Position numbers and translations under genes: made by a program. A model generated the notes under the pieces. It was not told where the DNA came from, did not search any database, and was given only the letters and a program-made list of their open reading frames with translations. Shown here in pieces: positions 6,329 to 30,715 of a stretch of 33,776 nt of DNA; the first letter of the stretch is position 1, and every line of letters begins with the position of its first letter. This DNA comes from a virus. The stretch lies in IMG/VR virus record IMGVR_UViG_3300007265_000004, positions 1 through 33,776 of that record, one strand, 5' to 3'.

Positions 6329-8506
6329 ATGGCCGTAGTCCTTTCCTCGAAATCCAAGAAGCGCGATAAGAAGCTGGACGCTGATGACGAGCTTATCGCC
6401 AAATCCCTGAAACGCTTTCAGATCACGGCTGATACTGAATCCGAAAGCCGCAAAAAAGAGCTTGAGGACTTGCGCTTCTCTATCGGAACAGGCCAATGGG
6501 ATGAAGCGGTCAAGGCCAACCGGGAAGTCGAAGGCAAGCCCTGCCTCACCGTTAACCGCGCCAATGCGTTTCTTCGTCAATACACTGGCGATGAGCGCCA
6601 GCACAGGCCGTCCATGCTGGTGAATCCCGTTGGCTCAGGCGCCGACATCGAAGTAGCCAAGATTCACCAGGGAAGCTTACGGCACATCGAAGTGGCCAGC
6701 TTTGCCGACATCACCTACGACGATTCCTACGACATGATGATGCGGATTGGCCGCTGTCCGTGGCGCATCAAGACGGACTTTGTTTCGGATATGTCGTTCG
6801 ACCAAGAGCAGCGCATTGAGCCAATCGCTAATCCCTTTGCCGCTTACCTTTCGCCCGTTCGCAACATGCTTGGGCAAGACCCATTGTGGGCGCACGTTGT
6901 CGAGGATCTGAGCAAAGAAGAGTACGAAGCTAAGTACGGCAATTCGCAGATGGCCCAGCTTCATTTCCCGACAGACATTGGCAATCCAGCGCCTGATTGG
7001 GTGACGAAAAACGGTGCGCGCATCGCGGAGTATTGGTGGATTGAGCTCCAGCCAGAAACAATCTGCCAGCTTGCCGATGGCAGCGTGAAGCTGAAGAAGG
7101 ATTTGACCCGCTTAGAAGCGATGGCCATTGACGACGAGCGCGAGACGGTTGTTCGTAAAGTCTGCTGCGTGAAACACAACGCCATCGAAGTGCTGGAGAC
7201 CTACGAATACCTCGGGAAATACATTCCGCTGGTCGAAGTGAACGGCCTACGCCTGAACGTCAACGGGAAAATCTACAGCGCCGGCATGGTGCGCGACTAC
7301 CGCGATGCGCAGCGTATTTATGACTTCATGGTGACGCGCCAGGTTGAGCAAATCGACGCGCAAGGCAAAGATCCACTGTTTGCGGCAGTGGGAAGCACCA
7401 CGAATCTGGAAGAGATGTATCGGATGATGAACCGCAAGAACTTCCCGATCGTTCCCTACTATGCGTATGACGAAAACGGCAAGCCGCTGCCCCCGCCGAG
7501 CCGCGCGAATCGCAATGTAGACATTCAGGGCATGGGAGAAATCATCAAGCAGGCCGATTACGACATGAAGGCGGTAATCGGCATTTACGGGCCGCGCGTG
7601 GACGAGCCGGGGATGCAAGCGGAATCCGGTTTCGCCATCATGACGCGGCAACAGCAGTCGGATACTGGCATGGTGAGTTGGTCAGACAACCTCAACCGTG
7701 CGATCCGCTGGCAAGGCACGATTTTGTTGGACCTGTGGCCACGCTACGTCACGGTGCCTAAGTTGCAGCGCATTATCAATCCCGATGACAGCGTGAAGCA
7801 TGCGGCAATCTTTAATTCACAGCTTGGCGCAAGCCAAGAAGATGCCGCGCATTTGCTCGACGGCGAGGCAATCAAAAAAGCCTACGACGTTGGCAAGGGC
7901 GAGTACGACATAACGCTATCGAGCGGCCCGATGAATCAGACCGCGCGCCAAGAGGCGTTTAAAGCGCTCACCTATGTCATCACGCAGAAGCCCGAAATGA
8001 TTCAGTTTCTTGGCGATATTTGGATGCGTAACGCAGATTTCGCGGATGCCGACATTGCCGCCAAACGATTCAAGAAGATGCTGCCTCCACAGTTGCAGGA
8101 CGATAACGCGGACGACGCTCAGGCGCAGGTTACGGCCTTGCAATCGCAGCTTGCGGCGTTGGGCCAGCAGCAGCAACAGCTTGTCGCGGAGTTGGCGAGG
8201 GCCAGCGATACGATTCGCACTGACCGGCTGGGCAATGAAACCAAGGAACGCATTGCCGGATTGAACTCCCAGACGCAGCTTGCTTTGCAGATTCTCAAGA
8301 CCGAGGGAGCGGCTGGGCTCGCTCATGCTCAAGCGGTTTACGACACCATCAGCCATCGCATGGAATTGCTGCATGAATCCATGACGCCGGAGCAGGATGC
8401 TGGCGCCGCTCCGCCGACGCCGGAATTGCCCGGTAAGGTAGAGCCCAAGGTTCAACCAATCACGCCGGCTGCGCCGACCGTACCAGTTCCAGGGAGCACA
8501 GGTTAG
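6329..8506 (+). CDS. P22-like portal protein
   Basis: This 725-aa protein matches the P22-type portal family in length and sequence features: an acidic N-terminal part with FSIGTGQWDEAVKANRE and the NRANAFLRQYTGDERQ helix, the motif near RIEPIANPFAAYLSP, and a late SGFAIMTRQQQSDTG segment of the ring. The C-terminal 150 residues are Gln/Ala-rich and helical (LQSQLAALGQQQQQL), like the barrel of long P22 portals, then a Pro-rich tail. It forms the dodecameric vertex through which DNA enters and leaves. It begins directly after the co-chaperonin stop. Confidence 0.9.
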   Translation: MAVVLSSKSKKRDKKLDADDELIAKSLKRFQITADTESESRKKELEDLRFSIGTGQWDEAVKANREVEGKPCLTVNRANAFLRQYTGDERQHRPSMLVNPVGSGADIEVAKIHQGSLRHIEVASFADITYDDSYDMMMRIGRCPWRIKTDFVSDMSFDQEQRIEPIANPFAAYLSPVRNMLGQDPLWAHVVEDLSKEEYEAKYGNSQMAQLHFPTDIGNPAPDWVTKNGARIAEYWWIELQPETICQLADGSVKLKKDLTRLEAMAIDDERETVVRKVCCVKHNAIEVLETYEYLGKYIPLVEVNGLRLNVNGKIYSAGMVRDYRDAQRIYDFMVTRQVEQIDAQGKDPLFAAVGSTTNLEEMYRMMNRKNFPIVPYYAYDENGKPLPPPSRANRNVDIQGMGEIIKQADYDMKAVIGIYGPRVDEPGMQAESGFAIMTRQQQSDTGMVSWSDNLNRAIRWQGTILLDLWPRYVTVPKLQRIINPDDSVKHAAIFNSQLGASQEDAAHLLDGEAIKKAYDVGKGEYDITLSSGPMNQTARQEAFKALTYVITQKPEMIQFLGDIWMRNADFADADIAAKRFKKMLPPQLQDDNADDAQAQVTALQSQLAALGQQQQQLVAELARASDTIRTDRLGNETKERIAGLNSQTQLALQILKTEGAAGLAHAQAVYDTISHRMELLHESMTPEQDAGAAPPTPELPGKVEPKVQPITPAAPTVPVPGSTG

Positions 8507-10620
8507 TGAAAATAAAACTCGCGGTCTTCCTCATCATTGTACTGATGATTGGCGGAAGTGTGTTCGCCCAGATCGGCAATATCACCAACCCCGTTACTGG
8601 CGTTCTGTCTGTGCAAGATGGGGGCACATGCTCGACGGCCAATTCCTACGTCACGCAGCAGCTCCCCGTAAATGCTTCCACTACAACGGTCAACCTGGCC
8701 GGAACCTTTTCCGCAACACTGACCGTGCGCGAATCGAACAATGGCGGAGCAAGCTGGACGACGGCAGGAACTTTATCGTCTGCCGGTACTAGCACCTATT
8801 CCACTAACGGCTTCTCACATCTCTGCGTGGACCTCACGGCGTACACGTCTGGCAACATACAGGTGTCGATCTCCACGGGCCTCTTGCAAGTGCAAAGCGT
8901 AGTGTCAGGCGGCTCCTCTTCAGTGAGCAGCCTGAAGGGCGTAATCGATGCCACTATTGCTGGGCAAGGATTTACGCCTGCTACGGGTGGTGCGCGATGG
9001 GTGTCTGATGCGGTTCTGACGGTTAGCAGCCCGACAGTCACATCCGCTACGGCTGGATGGTCCGCTGCAACCGACCAAGGGGCAGGGCATGTCATCTGGT
9101 GTACGTCTGGCGGTTCCGTCGGTGGAGGGCAGGTCAATGGCGTCCTGAACGTTCCGAAGTCCTCTATCACGGTAGTAAATGCCACCACGGTAACGGCGGG
9201 AAGCAACGCCTCCGCCAACGCTACCGGAGCGTCCTGTGCTTTCGGCGTGGACAATGACGACGTTGGACTCAATGCGGCATGGACACAGACTGGGAGCAAG
9301 GGTGGCGGTCCCTGCGGTACGGTCCTGCTAAGTTCCAGTTTCATTGTCGAGAATGCGGTTTTCGTTTCCACCCCAGCCTGTAATAACGCCCAGACAGGCG
9401 GCAGTAGCCGAGGCATGCAGGTTATGGGCTGGAGTCGCACGCAGAATCAGCTTCTCATTGCCCCAACTTTCGTTACCACGAGTTGCACTGGCGTGCTTCA
9501 GAGTTGTGTGGGCGGCGTACAGGGCACAACCCTGATGCACTTCGGTGTCTTTGGCTTGAACTACTGCAATGTCCCGAATCCCGGCTCGCTCATCAGCGTT
9601 TTTGGGCTGACGACTGATACCTATATCTACGATGTGTTAGGGGAGGGCTGGGCTTGCGGGGTCGCGGATACAAACGTCATGGGCGTTCGGCTCGGGACTG
9701 TCGGAGAGATTGTTTGGTACGGAGTATTTGACGCGATAGGAAACGTTACCTGCCGGAACGAAACGGGTTCCGGCAGCGTAATGACCGATACATTTTGCGG
9801 AGACTCTTACGCTGAGTCTCTCATTATCATGCCTAACTCATCGTTGCAAACCAAGGGCGGAGGGTACGGCATCACTTCCAAGCCGAATGGTGCCATTGTC
9901 CACAATTTTGGGATTTGGTGGAGCAACCACGAAAGAATTGCGGGCTATGGCGGCAACGCTCAGGTTGCAGTTCAGACAGAACCGGGAGGCGGAACGACAA
10001 ACATCACCTACCTTGACGGTATGAATTTCGGGATGACTGGGAACGCCAGCTCGACCGGGCTTTACTGTCCAGCCACAGGAACAAGCTCCACCGTTTATTC
10101 ACGAAACGGATTCCTGCAAGGCGGCTCCAGCAACTTCGCCGTGTTTAACACCGCCTCGTCCAACGTCTGCAAGTTCCACGACCAAGGTGGTAACACCTTC
10201 GTAAACAATGTGAGCAACGGAGCGGGTAGCGCATGGTTTACGGACACCCCAGGGAGTACGTTTGGCGGAACGCAGGCGGGGATTGCTCCAACGTGCGCGG
10301 CGACAACTGGCGGCACCGCCTGTTCCTTGGTGGCTGGCAGCACAAACGAAAAAGGGACGGTCAGGATTACTGCCAGCGCGGTTGCAACGGGCACCGTGAC
10401 TCTAACCTATGCCGGGACGTTCGCGGGGGCGACGAATACAACGCCATCCTGTCATTTCGACTATGCCAATACTGGAACTGGCGCATGGTCACTGACTGCG
10501 ACCACGCCCATTGTGCTAACGACGCGCTCCACGACCGCTCCAGTCATCAACTGGAATCAAACCGGAGCACTTACAGCAGCTTCAACCTACGACATTGATT
10601 ACACCTGTTGGGCGAGGTAA
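8506..10620 (+). CDS. Secreted tailspike-like beta-helix protein
   Basis: This 704-aa protein starts at a GTG overlapping the portal stop. It opens with a clear Sec signal peptide (MKIKLAVFLIIVLMIGG, likely cut in VFA|QIG). The remainder is Gly/Ser/Thr/Asn-rich with repeating short beta strands, as in right-handed beta-helix tailspikes, and a beta-sandwich-like C-terminus ending YTCWAR. By hand count the mature part has 18 Cys, often in close pairs, unlike the cytosolic virion proteins here. No catalytic motif is recognised. A spike between portal and scaffold, and with a signal peptide, is unusual. It may be a receptor-binding, polysaccharide-binding or secreted surface protein. Confidence 0.7.
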   Translation: MKIKLAVFLIIVLMIGGSVFAQIGNITNPVTGVLSVQDGGTCSTANSYVTQQLPVNASTTTVNLAGTFSATLTVRESNNGGASWTTAGTLSSAGTSTYSTNGFSHLCVDLTAYTSGNIQVSISTGLLQVQSVVSGGSSSVSSLKGVIDATIAGQGFTPATGGARWVSDAVLTVSSPTVTSATAGWSAATDQGAGHVIWCTSGGSVGGGQVNGVLNVPKSSITVVNATTVTAGSNASANATGASCAFGVDNDDVGLNAAWTQTGSKGGGPCGTVLLSSSFIVENAVFVSTPACNNAQTGGSSRGMQVMGWSRTQNQLLIAPTFVTTSCTGVLQSCVGGVQGTTLMHFGVFGLNYCNVPNPGSLISVFGLTTDTYIYDVLGEGWACGVADTNVMGVRLGTVGEIVWYGVFDAIGNVTCRNETGSGSVMTDTFCGDSYAESLIIMPNSSLQTKGGGYGITSKPNGAIVHNFGIWWSNHERIAGYGGNAQVAVQTEPGGGTTNITYLDGMNFGMTGNASSTGLYCPATGTSSTVYSRNGFLQGGSSNFAVFNTASSNVCKFHDQGGNTFVNNVSNGAGSAWFTDTPGSTFGGTQAGIAPTCAATTGGTACSLVAGSTNEKGTVRITASAVATGTVTLTYAGTFAGATNTTPSCHFDYANTGTGAWSLTATTPIVLTTRSTTAPVINWNQTGALTAASTYDIDYTCWAR

Positions 10621-13270: not shown

Positions 13271-14113
13271 ATGAAAACACTACAAAAAGCAGTTCTCATT
13301 CTCGCGGCGGTCCTGAGTTTCTGCGGAATCTCGCAGGCCCAGGTCGCACTGACACAAACCACGCTCACATCAAGCGTAAACGGCCCCGCGCTGTATGCCG
13401 GCACTTCGGCGACGATTGACCAGTGCATGTTCCTTGCTTCTGTGACTGGTATCAGCACGCCTCCTTTGCCGGGTTCGCCGGTCAGCGTTATTTACGTTGG
13501 CAGGGAAGCGCTGGGCGTGCTGACGGTCAACACCTCCATCAAAAGCGTCTGCGGTTTTCGTGGCTATCTTGGTACGCAAGCCGCTCCGCATCCGTCTGGT
13601 GACATGGTGTTGATTTCTAACGCCTATCAAACAAACGTCCAGTATGGAGCGAACCCCATGCCTTCTGGGTTCTTCCAGCAAGACCCGCCGATTGGTGGCG
13701 GTTGCACGGCAGCGAACATACCTACTACGCCGTGGGTGAATATACTCACGGGCGCTCAGTGGTTGTGTTCTCCGATCACCGGCACTTGGGTTCCTGGTTT
13801 TCAGAACCCCTGGGCTATTGATTCCGCTTCGCAGACGGCAACGGTTCCTGCGGCTGCTGGTACGGTAACTCCCACTGGCCCGTTATTTGTCATCAGCGGC
13901 GCTGGTGCCATCACTGGCTTCGTTGTCCCGATTGGCTGCAATGCTACGGCGGTGGGCGGTTGCTCCTTCACCGTGATTGCTGCTGCCGGTTCGACGTGGA
14001 CTTGGACCGCAGCTGGAAACATCATGACGGCGGGAACTGGAACCCCTGGCCACACATTCACGTTTACGTGGTCGGCGAGCTTGTCCAAGTTCGTGCCTTC
14101 GTCCTTCACGTAA
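13271..14113 (+). CDS. Secreted hypothetical protein following the coat gene
   Basis: This 280-aa protein starts at the ATG at 13271, after GGGAGAAAACAAC. The N-terminus is a classical Sec signal peptide (MKTLQKAVLILAAVLSFCG, cut in SQA|QVAL). The mature part is Gly/Thr/Pro-rich and beta-like, with 6 Cys by hand count in three nearby pairs (for example GCNATAVGGCSF). In other phages a gene here may encode a head decoration or fibre protein, but the signal peptide argues for export. It is followed by a hairpin. Function unknown. Confidence 0.65.
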   Translation: MKTLQKAVLILAAVLSFCGISQAQVALTQTTLTSSVNGPALYAGTSATIDQCMFLASVTGISTPPLPGSPVSVIYVGREALGVLTVNTSIKSVCGFRGYLGTQAAPHPSGDMVLISNAYQTNVQYGANPMPSGFFQQDPPIGGGCTAANIPTTPWVNILTGAQWLCSPITGTWVPGFQNPWAIDSASQTATVPAAAGTVTPTGPLFVISGAGAITGFVVPIGCNATAVGGCSFTVIAAAGSTWTWTAAGNIMTAGTGTPGHTFTFTWSASLSKFVPSSFT

Positions 14114-18405: not shown

Positions 18406-19188
18406 ATGCCATTCGGCGGATTGCTCACAGCGGGAATCGGTGCGGCGGGTTCTATCTTCGGCGGACTCTTCGGCGCGAACGCAAGCTCCAAAGCCTCGCA
18501 GCAGTACATCGACGCTCTCAAGCAGGCGCAAGGCTCGCTCACCGACACCGAGAACAAAGGGCTTGCTAATTTCCAGCCTTACCTGTCCGCAGGCTCAGGC
18601 GCGACAGGGATGCTCTCGGACATGCTCAAGACTCCGGGGCAAGGGCTGCTGACGCCGTGGACGAACACCTTCCAAGCGCCAACGGCAGAGCAGGCCGCGC
18701 AGACGCCGGGTTACCAGTTCCAGTTAGAGCAAGGCAACAACGCAATTCAGAACTCTGCGGCGGCAAGGGGCGGATTGCTTTCAGGCGGCACCCTTGCGGA
18801 TATGAACAAGTTCTCGCAGGGGTTGGCGAGTGAGAATTATCAGAACACGTTCAGCAATTCGCTCACGCAATATCAGAACGCTTACCAGTCCTTCCTCAAC
18901 AACCAAAATAACACCTACTCGCGGCTCATGGGCCTCTCGAATAATGGCCTTAGCGCCTCGAACAGTGCGGGGAACCTCATCAGCGGAATCGGCGGCGACA
19001 TAGCGAGCCTCTACGGACAGCAAGGCGCGGCACGAGCGCAGGGAACCATCGGCTCAGCTAACAGCCTCGTAGGAATGATTCCCGGACTCACCGGCAACCT
19101 CTCGGACATCCTCAACATACTCAAGGGCAACGGCGGCGGCAGCGGCGGACCTGGCAACGGTGATTTTGGCGGGGAGGTGACACACTAA
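18406..19188 (+). CDS. DNA ejection (internal virion) protein
   Basis: The 260-aa product has a Gly/Ala-rich hydrophobic N-terminus (GGLLTAGIGAAGSIFGGLFG) and the segment TPGYQFQLEQGNNAIQNSAA followed by RGGLLSGGTLADMNKF, which is typical of P22-group DNA transfer/ejection proteins. The rest is Asn/Gln/Ser-rich and helical. Proteins of this class are packed inside the head and pass into the host envelope to help the genome across. Two larger partners follow, matching the three-protein P22 gp7/gp20/gp16 arrangement. Confidence 0.75.
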   Translation: MPFGGLLTAGIGAAGSIFGGLFGANASSKASQQYIDALKQAQGSLTDTENKGLANFQPYLSAGSGATGMLSDMLKTPGQGLLTPWTNTFQAPTAEQAAQTPGYQFQLEQGNNAIQNSAAARGGLLSGGTLADMNKFSQGLASENYQNTFSNSLTQYQNAYQSFLNNQNNTYSRLMGLSNNGLSASNSAGNLISGIGGDIASLYGQQGAARAQGTIGSANSLVGMIPGLTGNLSDILNILKGNGGGSGGPGNGDFGGEVTH

Positions 19189-19189
19189 A

Positions 19190-20743
19190 ATGGCCTTCCA
19201 ACTCCCAATAATGCCCAACTTCAATGTTCAGCAACCCCCGCCATTTGACCCACTGGCGCAGCGGCAGAAACAGGCCACTCTCAGCGGGATGCTCAGCGAG
19301 AATGCACTCCGCCAGCAGCTTGCTCCGCTTCAGGTGCAGGAGCAGCAGCAAAAGGTGCAGCAGGCCACCACACAGAACCAATTGCAACAGCTCGAACTGC
19401 AATCGCAGCAGGGAATTATTAAGGCATTCAGTAATCCTGACTTCGTAAAAAAGGTTTCGGCTACCGATACTACTGCGCCGGGCGGCGCGGGCTTTGATCC
19501 CGATGCCATGATTAATGAACTCACTACGAATTATGGCGTCCAACCGCAACAGGCGCAGGCCGTTGTTGACCACTACCTGAAACGCTCACAGACGCTGGCT
19601 GAAATTGCCAAAACGAACGCTCAGGCGGGAGAAGCGCAATCCGCGATGCGGGACAAAGGATACAAACTACTCGCCGACAAGATTGGCTCAGTCCTCGACA
19701 CGCCAGCAGCAAAGGCCAAAGATGCCATGACCGCATTGGCTCAGGACCTGGTGAAGAATCAAAAATCCTATGCGGGCGTGCCGCAAGACGATTTGGCGCA
19801 TATTTTTCAGGCCGCCACGGCGGGGGACATCGAAAAGTTACAGGCAGCGGCGGGAGGTATCGGACTCGACGCAAAAATCGCCGACTTCCACAAGTCGAAA
19901 CAAGAAGCGGTAAATGCTACACCTGAAGGCGCGGCGGCGAAGTCATCGGCGGAGGCTAAAGCCAAACTCGCCGTGGAGGGCAGCCCAGAAGCGCTCGCAT
20001 TGGCAGGGAATAAGGCGAAGATAGAGGCGAACGCCCGCCAGCAAGCCGCACAGGGCGATCCGAAAGTAGCAGGGAAGATGCTGGCCGATGGTTCGCTGAC
20101 CCTTGCGGACCTCAAAACTCGCGGGACAACGCCTCAATTCATCGAGCAGGCGACGGCGGAAGCTCAGAAACTCGACCCGAAATACAATCCCGCAGATGAA
20201 ATGATCGCCGAGCACGTTGCGAAGTCAGGAACGGCCAATCAGTTCTTCGGTTCGGCCAACTCTCTCATTACCAAAGGTGGAACGCTCGACCAACTGGAAG
20301 CGCAGGGTAAGAAGATCCCAGAGCACGACTTGCCGGTGCTTAACACGATTGATGATTGGCAGAAGGTCGCACGCGGCAAGGGGCCGCTGGCTGGATATGC
20401 AGCTACGGCGCTCGGTGTAGCTGACGATTACGGCAAGGTCATGGGCGGCGGGAATGCATCAGACCACGCCAGAGATGCGGCATTGCAGTTATTCGCCAAA
20501 GCTGCCAGTCCAGAACAGCGCGCCGATGCAATCCAGTCAACCCGCGATGCCGTTCAATCCCAGCGGGATTCGCGCATCGGGAACAATCAATTCATGAAGA
20601 GGCAGTATGGCGCCGAAGTGTCGAAGGGTGCTGGTGCGGAGGCAACGGGCCACGTCATTGCCATCGGTGACAAGAATTATCAATACAAAGGCTCAGGAGA
20701 CACCGCAGACCTGAAGAACTATACGGAGGTCAAGAAGCCTTGA
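19190..20743 (+). CDS. Second ejection-type internal virion protein
   Basis: This 517-aa protein starts one base after the previous stop. It has a Gln-rich coiled-coil N-terminus (residues about 25-75; QVQEQQQKVQQATTQNQLQQ), and Ala/Lys-rich helices in the rest, with no membrane or signal segment. Composition, length and position fit an ejection protein like P22 gp20 or gp16, though sequence identity to either cannot be claimed. Its stop overlaps the next gene's TTG. Confidence 0.65.
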   Translation: MAFQLPIMPNFNVQQPPPFDPLAQRQKQATLSGMLSENALRQQLAPLQVQEQQQKVQQATTQNQLQQLELQSQQGIIKAFSNPDFVKKVSATDTTAPGGAGFDPDAMINELTTNYGVQPQQAQAVVDHYLKRSQTLAEIAKTNAQAGEAQSAMRDKGYKLLADKIGSVLDTPAAKAKDAMTALAQDLVKNQKSYAGVPQDDLAHIFQAATAGDIEKLQAAAGGIGLDAKIADFHKSKQEAVNATPEGAAAKSSAEAKAKLAVEGSPEALALAGNKAKIEANARQQAAQGDPKVAGKMLADGSLTLADLKTRGTTPQFIEQATAEAQKLDPKYNPADEMIAEHVAKSGTANQFFGSANSLITKGGTLDQLEAQGKKIPEHDLPVLNTIDDWQKVARGKGPLAGYAATALGVADDYGKVMGGGNASDHARDAALQLFAKAASPEQRADAIQSTRDAVQSQRDSRIGNNQFMKRQYGAEVSKGAGAEATGHVIAIGDKNYQYKGSGDTADLKNYTEVKKP

Positions 20744-22329
20744 GTTTACCTCCTGGCGCAACTCTGCTAAGCGGGAAAGTGCCAATGCCGCTGCCACCTG
20801 GCGCAACGCTGGTTTCCGGTGGCGCGTCTACCGCACCAACGGCAAAGCCAGGCATGGGCGCAGCGGCTCTCGGCGACCCCAATGAAGACATCAGCACTGG
20901 GCCAGAAGGCTCAATGCCGCTCAATCGATTGATGTCTCCGGAATCGCAAAGGCAAGCCACCAAGGGCGGCCTTGGTTTTGCCTCGCTGATACCGCTAGCA
21001 TTTGTTCCTGAAACTTGGCCGCTTATTGGCAAGATCGGCGCCGCGGCGGGCGTTGGTGCGGCCACTGGTGCGGCTCAAGGCGCTGTCGCCGAGCATCCAT
21101 CGGGCCGAGACATCCTCAAGAACATGGGCGAGCAGGGAGCTTCATACGGAGGCGGGGAACTAACAGGTGGCCTTCTCCAAAAGGCGTTCGGGTTTCTGCG
21201 TAGTCTCAGGGGCGTCAAACAAGCGGCAGAGGCCAGCAAAGCAGAAGAGGCGGCGACATCGGCGGCGACATCGGCGGCGACCCCACCGAAAACAACCCCT
21301 GAAACCACGGGCACATTGGCCGAGATGGCGACCGCCCCCAGGCCCGCGACGACCGCACCAGCACCAACTTCAAAGCCAGCCGGGGACATCATCGGTGAGC
21401 GCCTCGGAATTCTGGACAAAGATCCACAAAGCTTAATTACCAGCGCCTTAAAGCCGGGCACGAATAACACCAAATGGGCGGCGGACGTGAAGCGGGCGTT
21501 TCCTGATCTAAAGGCCGCTGAATCGGAACTTGGACGGCCCATCAAGACGTTCGATGACGCTGAAGAGGCAATCAAGACAGCCAAAGCAAAGCTATGGTCT
21601 CAGTATGAAGCGAAACTGACCCAGGTAAAAGGGCTTGGCCCGAACGCGCCATCGCTTACGAACATTGACGGGAACCAAGTCGCTGACGCAATGATGAAGG
21701 CTATCGACCAGCGCACGACATTGCAAAACCCGGAATTGGTTAAGAAGATCACTAAGGTTGCCGACACCTACCGTCGCTCCATGTCAGTCGAGGAAGCAGA
21801 AGAGTTCCTGCAATCCGCGAATAATGAACTGAACTCCTATTACGCCAAAAACAAAGTAGGCCAGCAAGTCGCCGCGCGCGACCCAGAGACCGGGCACGTC
21901 GTTGCCGAGGCGAACACGCTGCGCCAAGCACTCTACTCCAAGCTTGACGAACTAACGGGCCCAGGCGCAGCCGATCTGAAGCAGCGATACGGCGCTCTTT
22001 CTAATTTCGATGATGTTCTGTCCAAGAGAAAGAATGTTTCCCTGAGACAGCAGCCACAAAGCATGGCCGAGCAAATCAGCAAGGCCAGAGCTTACGCGAA
22101 GATCGCGGTCGGAGTCGCCCGCGGCGACCCGTGGAGCGTTTATGAAGGCGTACAGCAAAGCGCCGCAGCAACTTGGCTCAAGGAGCGTCAGACTTCAGAG
22201 GCAATGATGGAGCGGGCTTTTGCGAATTGGGGCCGACCCGCCGCAGCACCCGCCCTAGTGGTTTCCGTGCCGAGAACTCCAGGATTAGGCCAAGCCGTAA
22301 GGTCCACGCAGGCTTCACAGGAGCAATGA
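20740..22329 (+). CDS. Third ejection-type internal virion protein
   Basis: This 529-aa protein starts at TTG 20740, 9 nt after GGAGGT and overlapping the previous TGA. Its N-terminus contains the repeat LPPGATLLSGK / LPPGATLVSGG. A hydrophobic Gly/Ala helix follows near residues 80-115 (IGKIGAAAGVGAATGAAQGA) that could insert in a membrane. A Pro/Thr/Ala linker (about 165-215) leads into long helices. This fits an ejection protein that forms part of a trans-envelope conduit. The assignment is positional and compositional. Confidence 0.65.
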   Translation: MSLPPGATLLSGKVPMPLPPGATLVSGGASTAPTAKPGMGAAALGDPNEDISTGPEGSMPLNRLMSPESQRQATKGGLGFASLIPLAFVPETWPLIGKIGAAAGVGAATGAAQGAVAEHPSGRDILKNMGEQGASYGGGELTGGLLQKAFGFLRSLRGVKQAAEASKAEEAATSAATSAATPPKTTPETTGTLAEMATAPRPATTAPAPTSKPAGDIIGERLGILDKDPQSLITSALKPGTNNTKWAADVKRAFPDLKAAESELGRPIKTFDDAEEAIKTAKAKLWSQYEAKLTQVKGLGPNAPSLTNIDGNQVADAMMKAIDQRTTLQNPELVKKITKVADTYRRSMSVEEAEEFLQSANNELNSYYAKNKVGQQVAARDPETGHVVAEANTLRQALYSKLDELTGPGAADLKQRYGALSNFDDVLSKRKNVSLRQQPQSMAEQISKARAYAKIAVGVARGDPWSVYEGVQQSAAATWLKERQTSEAMMERAFANWGRPAAAPALVVSVPRTPGLGQAVRSTQASQEQ

Positions 22330-23561
22330 ACGTGCGAGAGCGAAGAAAGGCAATCGCGACAATGAGGATGAAGAGAATCACCCTGAGCATTGCAGTAATT
22401 TTGTTCCTCTGCGCCTCAGTAGGTCAAGCCCAAACCGTCAGCCCAATGGGCGGCATCGGAACGGTCCAAGTATTCGACAATACAGGGACTTTTGACGTTA
22501 ATGCAGTGATTTATTTTTACCAAGCGGGCACTACTACCCAGCAGGCAACTTACACAGACAGCGGTGGGACAACGCAGAATCCCAACCCAATGCCCATCGG
22601 GTCGCGAGCGACCATCTGGCTTACCACGTCGGCGTTCTACAAAATAGTTTGGTGCCTGCAAAATGACGGTGCCTTCTGTGCTCCAGCGGATGTCTTGGCG
22701 AGCATTGACAACGTTCCGGGCGGCGCAACCTCTTCAGGGGGCGGCGGCAGCTCTCCCTTCACGGGAATCTTTATCAGCTCAAGTGCCAGTCCATCCACCA
22801 GCGGCATTTTGCGACTTGCATCTTCGGATTCTGTCTGCTGGCGCAACGCCTCAGGCTCGACAAACTTGTGCATCAGCAAGGACTCGAACGATCTGCTGAC
22901 ATGGGCGGGTGGGTCGCTAAAACTGCCAGAAGTCGGCGCACCAAGCGCGACGGCTGGTTTCGATGTGCTATGGGCCGACAATACCGCACACCGCTGGAAG
23001 ATGGCGAACAATGGCGGGGGCGCCGTGCAGATCGTCGGTTCTGGCGTGGACATCAACACGTCAGACCAAGTGACGCAGCTACACTTCGGCGCGGCGGCTA
23101 CACCGCTTTCAGGGACGGCACCGACTACGGGGCAGAACCTCCAGTGGAACGGTTCAGCCATTGTCGGGGTCACGCCTACCGCAGCGGCGACCGAGGCCAC
23201 ATTTGGCGGCGGCGATTCTCAATCAACTGGTGCTGGGAATCAGTGCGGAGGTGCCCCTGGCAACGCCTGTGGGTATGCCATTCTAGCTAATGCCCACACC
23301 CTTACGCGGTTCACGGTTCAGTTGAGCACTGCGCCTTCTGGATGCGCAACAAATGCTGTGGTCGGAGTAAGGGACATGACATCCAGTACGAATTTGACAA
23401 GTATTACTATCGTTGCGCAACCCGTAGGATTCCGACTCGATTCAGGAGCGATTTCCATTGCCATGACTGCCGGACATGAATTCGCCGCTGGTTTATTGAC
23501 CGCAGCAGGTGGGTGCGGGACATTCCCGACTATCGGGAGCAGTACGGCTGTCTATCAGTGA
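22326..23561 (+). CDS. Tail fibre/spike with head-binding-type domain and a signal peptide
   Basis: The ATG overlaps the previous TGA. The 411-aa product has a basic lead, then a Sec signal (ITLSIAVILFLCASVG, cut in GQA|QTVS); a start at 22362 is also possible. Residues after the cut match the usual phage spike N-domain: VQVFDNTGTFDVNAVIYFYQ, AGTTTQQATYTDSGGT, then RATIWLTTSAFYKIVW and ASIDNVPGG. This domain normally attaches the fibre to the tail. The mature part has 8 Cys by hand count. A signal peptide before this domain is unexpected for a protein assembled in the cytoplasm. Receptor binding is the likely role. Confidence 0.75.
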   Translation: MNVRERRKAIATMRMKRITLSIAVILFLCASVGQAQTVSPMGGIGTVQVFDNTGTFDVNAVIYFYQAGTTTQQATYTDSGGTTQNPNPMPIGSRATIWLTTSAFYKIVWCLQNDGAFCAPADVLASIDNVPGGATSSGGGGSSPFTGIFISSSASPSTSGILRLASSDSVCWRNASGSTNLCISKDSNDLLTWAGGSLKLPEVGAPSATAGFDVLWADNTAHRWKMANNGGGAVQIVGSGVDINTSDQVTQLHFGAAATPLSGTAPTTGQNLQWNGSAIVGVTPTAAATEATFGGGDSQSTGAGNQCGGAPGNACGYAILANAHTLTRFTVQLSTAPSGCATNAVVGVRDMTSSTNLTSITIVAQPVGFRLDSGAISIAMTAGHEFAAGLLTAAGGCGTFPTIGSSTAVYQ

Positions 23562-23920
23562 CCTTCGCCAAGGTCACAGCGGCAGCGAAGATGCTCAAGT
23601 TCATGCTCTACGGTGTGCCTAAGCAGCACGGTATCGTGAAGAGGCTTGGGACCAATGAAAATGCGTGATTCTTTCCAGTCGGTAGCGGCGGCGACAGTGA
23701 GAGGAAAATGGTGCGCACTCAAGAATCCAGACCAAGGCTTTTCCGCACAAACAACATACAGGTCGAAGGACGGCGCGGATTCTTCTGCGAAGGCGTTGAC
23801 CGCTTCTTGCACGTCGGTTTGGGAGCACCCTTGCATCGGGTAAACATTGCGGGGCCGGGCCTGAACCGAAACCGCGCTCAGGAGCAGGACAGTGAATAGC
23901 AGGAGTTGTCTCATATGCAT
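23555..23920 (-). CDS. Exported small HExxH metallopeptidase-like protein
   Basis: The 121-aa product on the minus strand has a Sec signal (MRQLLLFTVLLLSAVSVQA, cut before RPRN). Near the C-terminus it has VEHELEHLRCRC, where HELEH (residues 106-110) fits the zincin HExxH consensus. Cys32, Cys58, Cys113 and Cys115 could form two disulfides. The start may be ATG 23920 or 23914. A third zinc ligand cannot be identified, so peptidase activity is unproven. It overlaps the spike's stop by 7 bp and its start abuts the divergent fibre gene's start. Likely a moron cargo gene. Confidence 0.6.
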   Translation of the reverse strand: MHMRQLLLFTVLLLSAVSVQARPRNVYPMQGCSQTDVQEAVNAFAEESAPSFDLYVVCAEKPWSGFLSAHHFPLTVAAATDWKESRIFIGPKPLHDTVLLRHTVEHELEHLRCRCDLGEGH

Positions 23921-25024
23921 AGTCTGACACGTAGCAGACGCCTGTCAATCGAACGGGCATCGAAGGTGCTCATCCTGCTAGGGGTGTGCTTTTGGGCACA
24001 ATCCACCTTTGGGCAGGGAGTCTCCGTAGGCCCCCGTACAGTCACCGCGACCGTCAATGGCCAGATGAGGCCCGTAGTAGCGACTGTGACCGTCTGCGCA
24101 TCGGGAGCGGCTGGATTACCTTGCTCGCCAGCTCTTAGCAACGTACTTTTCAGCAATGCCGCGCTCACGCAACCTGTCTCGAATCCCACAACTACCGACG
24201 CCAACGGCAATTACACATTTTTTATCGCTCCGGGTAATTACACGCTTACAGAGACGGCAAGCGGGTTTAGCGGTTACAGCTACCAGACCTCCGTAACTTG
24301 CTCACCATCCTCCTGCACGGTCGGCACCCTTACCACTACTGGTGCGGCCAGCGTCGGCGGCACCTTGTCCGTGAGCGGGTTTTCTACCTTCAGCGGCGGA
24401 ACAAGCCTTGGCCCGCGCTTTCAGCAATTCACCGCAAACGGAACCTTCACGATCCCGATAGGGGTAACCGCTGTCAAAGTGACGGTAGTTGCGGGCGGCG
24501 GCGCAGGCGGTGGCGCAACCAACGCCGCAAACACTGCTGGCGGCGGCGGCGGCTCTGGAGGGATGGGTATCAAATGGCTGAGTGGCCTCACTCCCGGAAA
24601 CACCATTACCGTGACTGTCGGAGCGGGAGGGATTGCGGTAGCGGGTGCTAACGGTGGCAGCGGAGGCAACTCATCGGTAGCTTCTGGAACGCAAACCATA
24701 ACTACAATCACGGCAAATGCTGGAACGTTCGGCTTCGGTGCGGGTGGTGCATTCGGAACGGGCGGTGCAGCGGGGGTAGGGGGCGATTTTAATGTCGCGG
24801 GAAGTCCTGGACTATTTCTGCCTCCCGCAACGAATGCCCTTGGCGGTCACGGTGCCGCTGGCCCATTTGGAGGTGCTGGTCAAGGCAGCGGTGGCTCGGC
24901 GGCTGGTGGTGTTGGAACGGCTCCTGGTGCCGGTGGCGGCGGCGCAGGCGGGGCAGGAGGCGCAGGCAATCTGGCTGGCGGCAACGGCGCAGCCGGCATC
25001 GTGATCTTCGAGTGGGTCAACTAA
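23915..25024 (+). CDS. Exported glycine-rich adhesin-like tail fibre protein
   Basis: I chose ATG 23915, 9 nt after AGGAG; a TTG at 23906 is in frame. The 369-aa protein has a basic start, a Sec-type hydrophobic segment (KVLILLGVCFWAQSTFG|Q), then an Ig/CNA-B-like domain with TTDANGNYTFFIAPGNYTLT. Residues from about 170 show the glycine-rich phage adhesin pattern: FTANGTFTIPIGVTAVKVTV, then many GGGGG runs, ending GAAGIVIFEW. Such domains in tail-fibre tips (T-even gp38-like) bind receptors. The mature part has 4 Cys. The combination of signal and adhesin is unusual. Confidence 0.75.
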   Translation: MHSLTRSRRLSIERASKVLILLGVCFWAQSTFGQGVSVGPRTVTATVNGQMRPVVATVTVCASGAAGLPCSPALSNVLFSNAALTQPVSNPTTTDANGNYTFFIAPGNYTLTETASGFSGYSYQTSVTCSPSSCTVGTLTTTGAASVGGTLSVSGFSTFSGGTSLGPRFQQFTANGTFTIPIGVTAVKVTVVAGGGAGGGATNAANTAGGGGGSGGMGIKWLSGLTPGNTITVTVGAGGIAVAGANGGSGGNSSVASGTQTITTITANAGTFGFGAGGAFGTGGAAGVGGDFNVAGSPGLFLPPATNALGGHGAAGPFGGAGQGSGGSAAGGVGTAPGAGGGGAGGAGGAGNLAGGNGAAGIVIFEWVN

Positions 25025-25029
25025 GCAAA

Positions 25030-25212
25030 ATGAAAATTAAATCGCTGTTTCTCTCGCTGGTCCTGCTGGCGCTTGGCGGTAGCACATTTGGGCAGCAAGT
25101 GCTCAGCATCAGCCCTGCTGGTGAGCGGCGGAGTCAGCGTGTGGCTATCGCGTGGTCAGGCTGGGCGTGCTTGTCAGCTTCCTCTTGGCTGTTCCATGCA
25201 TTGACTCGATAG
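25030..25212 (+). pseudogene. Orphan signal-peptide ORF, probably a truncated gene
   Basis: The ATG at 25030 opens MKIKSLFLSLVLLALGGS, a good signal sequence cut in TFG|QQVL, very like the signal of the 704-aa spike (MKIKLAVFL...). After about 30 residues the sequence becomes unlike a protein and runs antisense into the 25134-25487 minus-strand gene. This suggests a gene whose body was lost, perhaps when the minus-strand gene was inserted. It could still make a 60-aa exported peptide. Confidence 0.4.
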
Positions 25213-25778: not shown

Positions 25779-26156
25779 ATGAGAAAACTTATTCTATTCC
25801 TGCTGCTGGCTAGCCCCTGCTTCGCGCAATCCACCAAGCTCCAGCTCGGTCTGTACTGGAGCAGCGGAGCGCAGATCACGAACGCCACAACGACGATTAC
25901 GAACTCGAAAGGCACAGTCATTGCCAAAGCTCCCGGCTCGTGGCCGACAGTCTCAGCGAATCTGCCCGCAGACCTCTACACCATTACCGTGACGGTTCCT
26001 GCTATGAGTGATAAGCCAGCAGTGAATTGGTCCGTGACTCTGCCGCTCGCCTCCAGCGTAGCGGGCTTCGCCATAACGAGCCAATCCGTAAGGATTACGC
26101 TCGACTCCACAGGGCAGCACGGAACGTTGCAGGCCAGCGTAGGGGCGACGTTTTGA
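25779..26156 (+). CDS. Exported small beta-sandwich protein
   Basis: The 125-aa product has a compact Sec signal (MRKLILFLLLASPCFA|QSTK). The mature part is a beta-rich domain with Ig-like spacing: LQLGLYWSSGAQITNA, GTVIAKAPGSW, DLYTITVTVP, SVTLPLASSVAGF, SVRITLDS. It has no Cys after the signal. No enzymatic motif. It lies between fibre and lysis genes. It may be a secreted or periplasmic binding domain. Its stop overlaps the TTG of the next gene. Confidence 0.65.
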   Translation: MRKLILFLLLASPCFAQSTKLQLGLYWSSGAQITNATTTITNSKGTVIAKAPGSWPTVSANLPADLYTITVTVPAMSDKPAVNWSVTLPLASSVAGFAITSQSVRITLDSTGQHGTLQASVGATF

Positions 26157-26389: not shown

Positions 26390-26627
26390 ATCCGACCGCG
26401 ACATACTAATCGAACTGAGAACCAAGGTGGGCGAGATTCACCGCGACATGACGCAACCGGAAGGGCGCGTTCCAAAGCTGGAAGTGACGGTAGACGAACA
26501 CTCCTCGCAGATCAATTCATTTGCTGGCGGCTTGAAAGTGGCGCTGTGGGTTATCGGCCTGGTCGGAACTCTTGTATTGGCGTTCGGCGGTGTATTGCTG
26601 GCGCATGTGCTCGGCGGCAAGCAGTGA
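26382..26627 (+). CDS. XhlA-like holin accessory membrane protein
   Basis: The 81-aa product overlaps the HTH gene by 8 bp and has GGAGG about 11 nt upstream. It has a polar coiled N-terminus (DILIELRTKVGEIHRDM) and one C-terminal transmembrane helix (LKVALWVIGLVGTLVLAFGGVLLAHVL, given here as residues about 50-76). This topology matches haemolysin XhlA-type proteins that act with holins and endolysins. The endolysin gene follows by GTGA overlap, supporting a lysis role. Confidence 0.7.
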   Translation: MPESDRDILIELRTKVGEIHRDMTQPEGRVPKLEVTVDEHSSQINSFAGGLKVALWVIGLVGTLVLAFGGVLLAHVLGGKQ

Positions 26628-27109
26628 CCCCTTCTCGGCGGTTATGGGTGCTCGAGACGACCAACCAAGCCCTCGAGGCGAAGCACGTCCACGCGCGCAT
26701 GGCGGCCTGTGAAGCGGCGCTCGAGAGCGACTATGGAACCTCTGCGCTTGCCCGGCTTGGCTTCAACCTTTTCGGCATGAAGCAGCACACGCACCCGGTC
26801 TATGGAACTTTGCCGCTGCCTACTCGAGAGTTCTTAAACGGTGAGTGGAAGCAGGAGATAGGGCAGTGGGTGAAGTACGAGAACCTCGAGGAATGCTTCG
26901 CCGATCGCATGGCAACGCTGATGCGGCTCAGGAGCGTGTACCCACACTATCAGGCCGCGCTCACGGCACCGGACCCGGAAACCTACATCGCGGAAGTCAG
27001 CAAGACGTGGAGCACGGACCCCGCTCGAGCAGCTAAGGTGCTGGCGATTTTCAACGAAGTTTTTCCGCAGGACTCGAGCGGAGACGTTCATTTTACCGAC
27101 GCAACTTAA
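26624..27109 (+). CDS. Endolysin, GH73-type glucosaminidase
   Basis: The 161-aa protein begins at a GTG overlapping the XhlA-like stop. It has the glucosaminidase pattern AALESDYGTSAL with the likely catalytic Glu34, followed by FNLFGMK (residues 47-53), which corresponds to the family 'NLFGIK'. YENLEECFADRMATLMR and YIAEVSKTWSTDP, as in GH73 'DPxYA' lobes, follow. It has no signal peptide, so it needs a holin to reach the peptidoglycan. It would hydrolyse GlcNAc-MurNAc linkages. Its DNA holds seven CTCGAG words, unlike the rest of the genome. Confidence 0.8.
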   Translation: MTPSRRLWVLETTNQALEAKHVHARMAACEAALESDYGTSALARLGFNLFGMKQHTHPVYGTLPLPTREFLNGEWKQEIGQWVKYENLEECFADRMATLMRLRSVYPHYQAALTAPDPETYIAEVSKTWSTDPARAAKVLAIFNEVFPQDSSGDVHFTDAT

Positions 27110-27118
27110 AGGAGAAAC

Positions 27119-27262
27119 ATGTTCCACAACTGGAAAACCACACTCGCAGGACTGCTCACCGCTGTCGGCAATGTCAGCGTCAATGGCGTGGGCTGGAAAC
27201 AGTTACTCGTATCGGCTGGAATCGCGGTACTCGGTGCGTTGGCAAAAGACCACAGTTCTTAG
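27119..27262 (+). CDS. Small holin-like membrane protein
   Basis: AAAGGAGAAAC precedes the ATG at 27119. The 47-aa product (MFHNWKTTLAGLLTAVGN ... KQLLVSAGIAVLGALAKDHS) has the layout of short phage holins: a Trp-Lys start, one or two hydrophobic helices, and an 'AKD' end. It directly follows the endolysin gene. It would form lesions in the inner membrane to release the endolysin. The ORF is shorter than most gene callers keep. Confidence 0.65.
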   Translation: MFHNWKTTLAGLLTAVGNVSVNGVGWKQLLVSAGIAVLGALAKDHSS

Positions 27263-27485
27263 CCTGGCGCTGCTCTGCTCAGGTTGTGCCTCGCACAAGC
27301 GGCCTGTCCACGGCGAAGTTGTCATCCCCAATTCCTGCATAGAGAAGCTGGAACCCACGGAGAAAACCTACTGTCACGGCCCGGACGGGCAGCACATCAA
27401 GTGCGATGGCGTGACGCTTACTCGGCAGGCGGGGTGCGAACGCTACGAAGTTAAGAAGGGCGCTTCTGCGCGAGGAAGGAAGTGA
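27234..27485 (+). CDS. Lysis-region lipoprotein
   Basis: The 83-aa frame starts at GTG 27234 inside the holin-like gene's end. It has a signal II-type N-terminus (RWQKTTVLSLALLCSGC) with an acceptable lipobox (C-S-G|C), so Cys would be lipidated. The mature part has four further Cys (for example NSCIEKL, TYCHGP, IKCDG). An embedded small lipoprotein after a holin recalls Rz1-like outer-membrane spanins. The inner-membrane spanin partner is not identified. The start codon is uncertain. Confidence 0.6.
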   Translation: MRWQKTTVLSLALLCSGCASHKRPVHGEVVIPNSCIEKLEPTEKTYCHGPDGQHIKCDGVTLTRQAGCERYEVKKGASARGRK

Positions 27486-27863: not shown

Positions 27864-28388
27864 ATGAAATATCTAGCAACGCTGTTTCTTGCATTGTTTG
27901 TTTCTGCTGTGGCGGTACAGGCCCAGACGGCTCCGGCCGTAAGCACCTTCAGCGTCTCCACCACGGCGGTTTCTCTGCCGGGCAACAAATCCAGTGTGGT
28001 CGGCTCGCTAGACGGCATAACGCTGGGGATCACGCAAAATCTGAGCTTGCGCCAAACGAACCTCATCTCGCCGGGGAACCTGACAGGCTTCTATGGCGGC
28101 TTCGACTACAACATCGCGCCATTCAGCAAATTGCTCAACAATCTGTCGCCACAGCTCAACGGCTACAATTTCCGGCTCGAGCTGACGGGCAGCGCGGGCG
28201 TTGACCGGGTATCGGACTCGAGCGGCACTGTCCACCAGCACTATTCCTTCCTTGGCGGCGGGCGGCTCACTTACGCGATCGGCGGTTCCAAGACCTATAG
28301 CCTGATTGGGGAGGCGCAATACGCCAAGCTGCCCGGCTACGCCAATAGCACGGTCATCGTGTCGCTCGGGCCGGTAATTCGTTTCTAA
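27864..28388 (+). CDS. Phage-encoded outer-membrane beta-barrel protein
   Basis: AAAGG precedes the ATG. The 174-aa protein has a clear signal (MKYLATLFLALFVSAVAVQA|Q) and a mature part with alternating amphipathic strands (FYGGFDYNIAPF, GYNFRLELTGSAGVDRV, HYSFLGGGRLTYAIGG, YSLIGEAQYAKL). It ends STVIVSLGPVIRF. The terminal Phe after an alternating strand is the usual beta-signal read by the BAM complex. About eight strands are expected, as in OmpA/Lom-type proteins. Phage Lom-type proteins alter the host surface; the same could apply. No Cys in the mature part. Confidence 0.7.
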   Translation: MKYLATLFLALFVSAVAVQAQTAPAVSTFSVSTTAVSLPGNKSSVVGSLDGITLGITQNLSLRQTNLISPGNLTGFYGGFDYNIAPFSKLLNNLSPQLNGYNFRLELTGSAGVDRVSDSSGTVHQHYSFLGGGRLTYAIGGSKTYSLIGEAQYAKLPGYANSTVIVSLGPVIRF

Positions 28389-29996: not shown

Positions 29997-30188
29997 TTGA
30001 AGAAGCCAATCCAATGCGCGACATGCGGCAAGGTCGGCAACGGCAACGGCTGGTTCTGGATTCGCAGGGATGGGCAGTTTTGCGTGGAGCGGCACAGCGG
30101 GGCACCTAAGCATCGGCGGTGGAGCGTTGTCTGTTCGATGGAGCACGCGATTTTGGAGTTGATTCGGTGGGATGACAGGAGAGTGTGA
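29997..30188 (+). CDS. Small zinc-knuckle protein, 63 aa
   Basis: It starts at TTG 29997, after GGGGATT. The product has CATCGKVGNGNGWFW with a CxxC pair near residue 7, then FCVERHSGAP and VCSMEH, so a Cx2C...CxxxH pattern fits a one-zinc ribbon. It is basic and aromatic. The stop overlaps the next ATG. Probably an early regulatory or nucleic-acid-binding protein. Confidence 0.55.
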   Translation: MKKPIQCATCGKVGNGNGWFWIRRDGQFCVERHSGAPKHRRWSVVCSMEHAILELIRWDDRRV

Positions 30189-30715
30189 TGAAGTTTGAGA
30201 TTCGGAATCGCTGGTCGGGCGAAATAGTTTTTAGCGTTGAGGCTGACTCTTGGCGCGTAGCCATCGAGGCTGCTTACAAGGCAAAGGCGGACCTGTGCGG
30301 GGCGAACCTGTGCGAGGCGGACCTGCGCGGGGCGAACCTGCGCGGGGCGGACCTGCGCGGGGCGGACCTGTGCGGGGCAGACCTGCGCGGGGCGGACCTG
30401 TGCGGGGCGGACCTGTGCGGGGCGGACCTGCGCGGGGCGGACCTGCGCGAGGCGAAAAACCTTGAGCGGTTCCCAATCTCCATCCTCGGCCACAAGCACG
30501 GCCTGTTCACAACGATGGATGGCCACCTTGCTATCGGCTGCCATGTTCACAGCTTTGATGAGTGGACGCGCCATGCCGAGAAAATCGGAAGCGTCGAAGG
30601 CTACTCTTCGCTGGACGTAGAAATCTACAAGCTGCATATCCAGCACATTCAAAAAGTTTCGCAACTGCTGTGGAACGCCAAGAAGGAAGAAAAAGCAGAA
30701 GCGGTCAAGGCATAG
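30188..30715 (+). CDS. Pentapeptide-repeat protein
   Basis: The ATG overlaps the preceding TGA (TGATG). The 175-aa protein has a small N-terminal alpha/beta domain (FEIRNRWSGEIVFSVEADSW), 11 uninterrupted A(D/N)L(C/R)(G/E) pentapeptides (about residues 34-88), then an 85-aa C-terminal domain with GLFTTMDGHLAIGCHVHSFD. Pentapeptide repeats form a right-handed quadrilateral beta-helix; some (MfpA, Qnr) mimic DNA and bind gyrase. Eleven repeats make fewer than three full coils, so a protein-interaction role is as likely. Repeats are almost identical, suggesting recent expansion. Confidence 0.8.
   Translation: MKFEIRNRWSGEIVFSVEADSWRVAIEAAYKAKADLCGANLCEADLRGANLRGADLRGADLCGADLRGADLCGADLCGADLRGADLREAKNLERFPISILGHKHGLFTTMDGHLAIGCHVHSFDEWTRHAEKIGSVEGYSSLDVEIYKLHIQHIQKVSQLLWNAKKEEKAEAVKA
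30287..30451 (+). repeat. 15-bp tandem repeat array encoding pentapeptides
   Basis: Eleven 15-bp units based on GCGGACCTGCGCGGG differ only at one to three positions per unit (gac/aac; tgc/cgc; ggg/gag/ggc-like ends). Units are nearly the same in third codon positions, which points to recent unit duplication rather than old divergence. Because the unit is GC-rich and lacks stops, several other frames are also open here. Confidence 0.85.

Follow-up and report, generated by a model that had tools for sequence, protein, structure and literature searches.

Gene organization at the spike locus

The window, the complete 33,776-nucleotide stretch of soil phage DNA analysed here (IMG/VR record IMGVR_UViG_3300007265_000004), carries a P22-like virion module with matches to a terminase, a portal (phrog_156), a scaffold (phrog_8865), a major capsid protein (phrog_283), an Hc3 protein (phrog_578) and an ejection protein (phrog_598). 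Three consecutive genes in the positions of DNA-ejection proteins precede the tailspike or fibre gene that is the subject of this analysis (Table 1). None of the three has a signal or a cysteine, and only 18406-19188 is assigned by a family match (phrog_598), those starting at 19190 and 20740 being placed by position. The order of injection proteins followed by tailspike is the same in Xanthomonas phage PBR31, where the gene annotated as the tail spike opens with the head-binding domain and immediately follows those for internal proteins A, B and C. The window also encodes an endolysin (26546-27109) and, on a weak match, a probable Rz1-like spanin (27171-27485).

Table 1. Coordinates of the spike gene, its parts and other genes discussed in the text
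Feature	Position in window	Strand	Basis
Tailspike/fibre gene: signal peptide, head-binding domain and variable C-terminal part	22326..23561	+	Translation, homologues
Sec signal peptide MKRITLSIAVILFLCASVGQA, predicted cut A/Q	22368..22430	+	Own rule; signal type kept in relatives; pN/pS
Head-binding (tail-attachment) domain, P22/Pam1/Pan3 tailspike type, residues 36-132	22431..22721	+	PDB profile, AlphaFold2, Foldseek
Cys pair C110/C118 (CLQNDGAFC), inferred disulfide, at beta strand end	22653..22679	+	Paired Cys columns, strand assignment
Internal ATG, 5 codons past cut; possible, poorly supported alternative start	22446..22448	+	No Shine-Dalgarno match; not conserved
Variable C-terminal part, cysteines gained and lost pairwise among relatives	22734..23561	+	Comparison of relatives
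Second signal-bearing gene, directly 3' of portal, 18 Cys	8506..10620	+	Signal rule
Third signal-bearing gene, directly 3' of major capsid protein, 6 Cys in mature form	13271..14113	+	Signal kept in relatives
Fourth signal-bearing gene, second fibre, directly downstream of spike	23915..25024	+	C-terminus matches phrog_863
Three genes (18406, 19190, 20740) in DNA-ejection (injection) protein positions, directly upstream of spike	18406..22329	+	Position, phrog_598

The spike ORF runs from an ATG at 22326 to a stop ending at 23561, which gives 411 aa counted from the first ATG. Three candidate starts, the ATGs at 22326, 22362 and 22368, all precede the hydrophobic segment and yield the same signal, ...MKRITLSIAVILFLCASVGQA/QTVSP (the slash marks the predicted cut), with the two upstream starts merely extending its positive n-region. 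Cleavage is predicted between A35 and Q36, and the mature protein would begin at nt 22431. A strong Shine-Dalgarno match is absent at every start of this ORF, and the whole protein could not be named: searches of PHROG and Pfam gave no match, and tblastn gave no hit in phages. A preliminary description of the window had drawn attention to a signal joined to a fibre N-terminal domain in this gene, and that arrangement is confirmed here and recurs at 28 other non-redundant loci. Its accompanying statement that no ATG, GTG or TTG exists near the cut was wrong: a TTG at 22401 lies within the hydrophobic stretch and an ATG at 22446 lies five codons downstream of the cut, though the latter is not conserved.

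Identity of the head-binding domain

A profile built from 65 related domains was searched against the PDB and matched the head-binding domain of the cyanophage Pam1 tailspike (7eeq, E 5.1e-16) and the Pan3 tail spike (9vyg, E 2.6e-15; 9vyh was also matched). An AlphaFold2 model of the domain reached a pLDDT of 87 and, when submitted to Foldseek, recovered Pan3 and Pam1 (TM 0.66) and then the P22 tailspike (2vky/1lkt, prob 0.97-0.98), although the fold similarity of the domain itself to P22 is weak (TM about 0.5). The earlier suggestion that this N-domain attaches fibres to the tail is borne out by the PDB profile and Foldseek comparisons, from which residues 36-132 are identified as the tail-attachment domain of a P22-type tailspike.

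Of the features by which a P22-type tailspike is recognized, the profile match, the fold and the surrounding P22-like virion module are all present, but cytoplasmic synthesis without a signal is not. Because this last criterion fails, the window spike is best described as a variant and not as an ordinary member of the type. Attachment to the virion tail as a trimer is expected of P22-type tailspikes and is inferred for the window spike, for which there are no virion data.

Conservation of the signal peptide

Signals were called by a rule of our own (n-h-c regions and a small-x-small cut) together with comparative evidence, and not by SignalP. By this rule the window spike meets the Sec/signal peptidase I criterion. 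Searching for the N-domain with and without signal peptides, a check proposed in the preliminary description, recovered 26 non-redundant IMG/VR or window loci with a signal ahead of the domain (a count that takes in L008, judged by eye), 3 further genes of this kind in Acidobacteriota genomes, and 56 non-redundant homologues without a signal, nearly all of which begin with Met at the domain, the position that corresponds to the cut. Among relatives the type of signal is conserved and its sequence is not: a positive n-region, a hydrophobic core and a small-x-small cut recur, mostly followed by Q. Purifying selection on the signal is read from its codons in these relatives, where pN of 0.08-0.19 compares with pS of 0.48-0.69 (pN/pS well below 1).

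On a tree of the domain, signal-bearing rows form one supported clade that includes two signal-less members, L082 and L094, which have probably lost the signal. As judged from this tree, the signal may have been gained once and then lost in places, or gained two to three times. Because the signal forms essentially one clade, many of the counts are not independent. Export of the spike by Sec is strongly supported by these comparisons of predicted sequences; actual export, cleavage and a periplasmic location are inferred. It had been suggested that the signal might be trimmed prior to tail attachment, or that the protein attaches to virions outside the cell. Trimming fits best, because the trimmed form would share its N-terminus with the signal-less homologous spikes, an argument that rests on sequence comparison only.

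Paired cysteines in putatively exported spikes

As cysteine content alone could follow lineage, parity and pairwise gain and loss were tested. Complete spikes of the putatively exported group contain 8-18 Cys, an even number in 20/20, whereas of the signal-less homologues 15 have an even count and 22 an odd one (Fisher p = 3e-6, uncorrected for shared descent). Within the head-binding domain, 2 or 4 Cys are found in 26/26 exported forms and none in 53/56 signal-less ones. In the clade of the window spike the domain pair lies at columns 86/95, and in the sister clade at 31/95. Both pairs, with an extra Cys, are found together in one relative (31, 60, 86, 95), and three relatives carry an additional 27/30 pair, such that pairs arise, vanish and change partner jointly. 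Similarly, the C-terminal columns 43/54 and 77/88 are each jointly present or jointly absent. Two exceptions, the Acidobacteriota prophage copies G242 and G282, have a signal and a domain without Cys, with 8 and 6 Cys elsewhere. Exported families contain 2.3-2.6 Cys per 100 aa versus 0-0.8 for the scaffold, portal, capsid, Hc3 and ejection proteins; the gp4-like protein has 1.4. The exported spikes meet the criterion of a disulfide protein, namely an even number of pairwise conserved cysteines, and oxidation of these residues is strongly supported by the alignments, while the disulfides themselves are inferred and distances in the model are unmeasured.

Signals on other genes of the same phages

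One fixed, rule-based signal call was applied to appendage-type, core virion/packaging and antisense ORFs. It was positive for 33/43 appendage-type ORFs of these phages, for 0/192 of their core virion/packaging ORFs and for 7/424 antisense ORFs. The signal characterizes these phages and is not confined to one gene: their genomes repeatedly contain further signal-bearing families, one located after the portal, one following the capsid protein and one being the second fibre. Five phage records that share this core, four of which name a host in the Pseudomonadota, were also checked: of 48 virion-region ORFs, only 1 scored a signal (Rhodoferax gp24), and no signal was found on any head-binding-domain spike.

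All through the phage group the post-capsid signal protein (window 13271-14113) is conserved, and it contains 4-8 Cys. It is possibly a capsid decoration protein or a fibre; its model is weak (pLDDT 73) and its Foldseek matches are partial. Further small ORFs lie downstream of the spike. That at 25030-25212 has a clear signal (MKIKSLFLSLVLLALGGSTFGQ) and an early end, and is possibly the broken start of another fibre gene. Another, at 25779-26156, lies downstream of the fibres and has a signal (MRKLILFLLLASPCFA/QST) and no family match. A signal-bearing ORF at 27864-28388 has alternating residues and a C-terminal F and, by eye only, looks like a small phage-encoded outer-membrane beta-barrel. 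A small ORF at 30185-30715 contains a run of pentapeptide repeats (ADLRGADL...).

Probable host

An initial scan of genome contigs with the head-binding domain found nothing. A scan of genomes with the capsid protein located a contig of a Bryobacterales MAG with the same gene order and spike, and among 396 Acidobacteriota genomes two more gave hits: a complete chromosome of 6.4 Mb, within which a prophage remnant encodes ejection proteins as well as exported fibres, and another draft. VKOR, DsbA-family proteins and signal peptidase I are encoded in 3/3 Acidobacteriota genomes holding such spikes. The host of the window phage is probably a member of the Acidobacteriota, with relatedness as the only basis for this assignment.

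A two-compartment model and its alternatives

Retention in relatives of both the signal and strictly paired cysteines suggests that the tail fibres are finished outside the cytoplasm. The reading preferred here, with moderate confidence, is that Sec exports the spike of this P22-type podovirus, probably one of Acidobacteriota, into the periplasm, where it is trimmed and oxidised before it joins virions at lysis. A P22-type podovirus tailspike or fibre would have acquired a cleavable Sec signal. The spike would be translocated and signal peptidase I would cut after ...GQA, exposing an N-terminus that is the ordinary start of a head-binding domain. In the periplasm its cysteines would be joined as disulfides by host VKOR/DsbA-type machinery, and lysis by holin, endolysin and spanin would mix periplasm and cytoplasm, with mature spikes binding the tails of DNA-filled heads. 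The signal, the domain identity, the co-location with a virion module and the paired cysteines are the parts of this model that the sequence supports; that the protein is indeed exported and oxidised, and that it attaches to virions outside the cytoplasm, during lysis or later, is inferred in the absence of proteomics or localisation data.

Completion of loose heads is established for P22, whose heads reportedly accept tail parts in vitro (Israel et al. 1967, cited in PMC3741392 and PMC2989905), and mixing at lysis would for that reason suffice for spike attachment. Against the export model, a spike active in the periplasm could be harmful to the producing cell. The more general proposal is evenly poised between acceptance and doubt: that this lineage of Acidobacteriota tailed phages makes DNA-filled heads in the cytoplasm, folds and disulfide-bonds all of its appendages (spike, fibres and capsid-adjacent protein) in the periplasm, and joins the two only at lysis.

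It is also conceivable that the spike, once exported, remains with the infected or lysogenic cell, in its envelope or in the medium, acting as an adhesin, a decoy or a means of receptor masking or superinfection exclusion, in which case the head-binding domain would be a mere leftover. Signals are indeed found on genes without a proven virion role too, and the ORF at 27864-28388 resembles, again by eye, a signal-bearing outer-membrane protein. However, conservation of the head-binding domain reaches its first residues, and no other module of this highly variable protein is as well conserved; the gene occupies the place of a tailspike in the virion operon, and no second, signal-less spike with a head-binding domain was found in the window. 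A role in the envelope or medium is considered unlikely, if still to be reckoned with.

If translation began past the hydrophobic segment, whether there alone or at the upstream start as well, an ordinary cytoplasmic spike would be produced, with an upstream part that is untranslated or minor; this was the outcome that the preliminary description had named as refuting export. The ATG at 22446 is only five codons past the cut, and many close relatives have an ATG there or immediately beside it (SPFM motif), yet the internal ATG is missing in L007, L010, L011, L051, L061 and G001, and upstream codons in relatives are under strong purifying selection. Moreover, in L024-L030 a Shine-Dalgarno sequence is present at the signal start and none at internal starts, and the paired cysteines would be left unexplained. 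The refuting outcome does not hold for the family, for which an internal start was rejected on the grounds that the ATG is not conserved and that substitutions in the signal region follow the pattern of coding sequence. What remains is very improbable as a general account, and a minor shorter product from ATG 22446 in the window virus alone is not excluded. Finally, that the hydrophobic N-terminus is never cut off and serves to anchor the protein in a membrane, or forms a hydrophobic plug within the virion, is barely tenable: a hydrophobic segment alone cannot tell an anchor from a signal, but in nearly all relatives the segment ends in a small-x-small cut motif, mostly followed by Q, and its retention would add about 20-35 residues ahead of the domain, homologues of which have their first residue at the position of the cut.

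Comparison with known systems

Assembly of tailed phages is assumed to take place entirely in the cytoplasm. In the literature searched, coverage of which was incomplete, there was no description of Sec signals on the fibres of tailed phages, and missing signal peptides have been taken as support for a phage origin of adhesins (PMC6199706). If export, trimming and attachment at lysis are correct, the conservation of an export signal in front of a tail-attachment domain would imply a two-compartment assembly route with disulfide-hardened fibres, and would expose a fault in pipelines that class signal-bearing adhesins as cellular.

The closest known systems are the tailspikes of P22 (gp9; 1lkt/2vky), cyanophage Pam1 (7eeq) and Pan3 (9vyg), whose head-binding N-domains are like that of the window spike in profile and fold; P22-type phages also share with the window a P22-like head, the portal, Hc3 and the ejection gene neighbourhood. 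No Sec signal was seen on the matched P22, Pam1 and Pan3 spikes, and the exported group differs from them by adding a signal and paired cysteines. The same N-domain as in the window is found in the signal-less spikes of PBR31 (orf034), phage DSL-LC05, podovirus ctn9Y15 and freshwater IMG/VR contigs, which have Met at the domain, almost no domain Cys, and odd or even numbers of Cys in the whole protein. In PBR31, orf034 follows three internal proteins, as the spike does in the window, but lacks a signal.

A signal-like N-terminus (MKKLIA...G/ATL) is present on fibre-type genes of two cultured podophages, Burkholderia phage BcepC6B (gp19) and Xanthomonas phage PBR31 (orf035), as judged by eye and under the threshold of our own rule. 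The N-domains of these proteins, which are annotated as tail fiber or putative structural protein, are unrelated to that of the window spike. Both phages (PBR31 orf035, L189:16675-17484; BcepC6B gp19, L194:6001-7074) are ready systems for the study of exported fibres.

Outside of the tailed phages, the coat proteins pIII and pVIII of filamentous phage Ff are virion proteins made with Sec signals. They sit in the inner membrane during assembly and are extruded from there, in a phage that has no tail and no lysis step.
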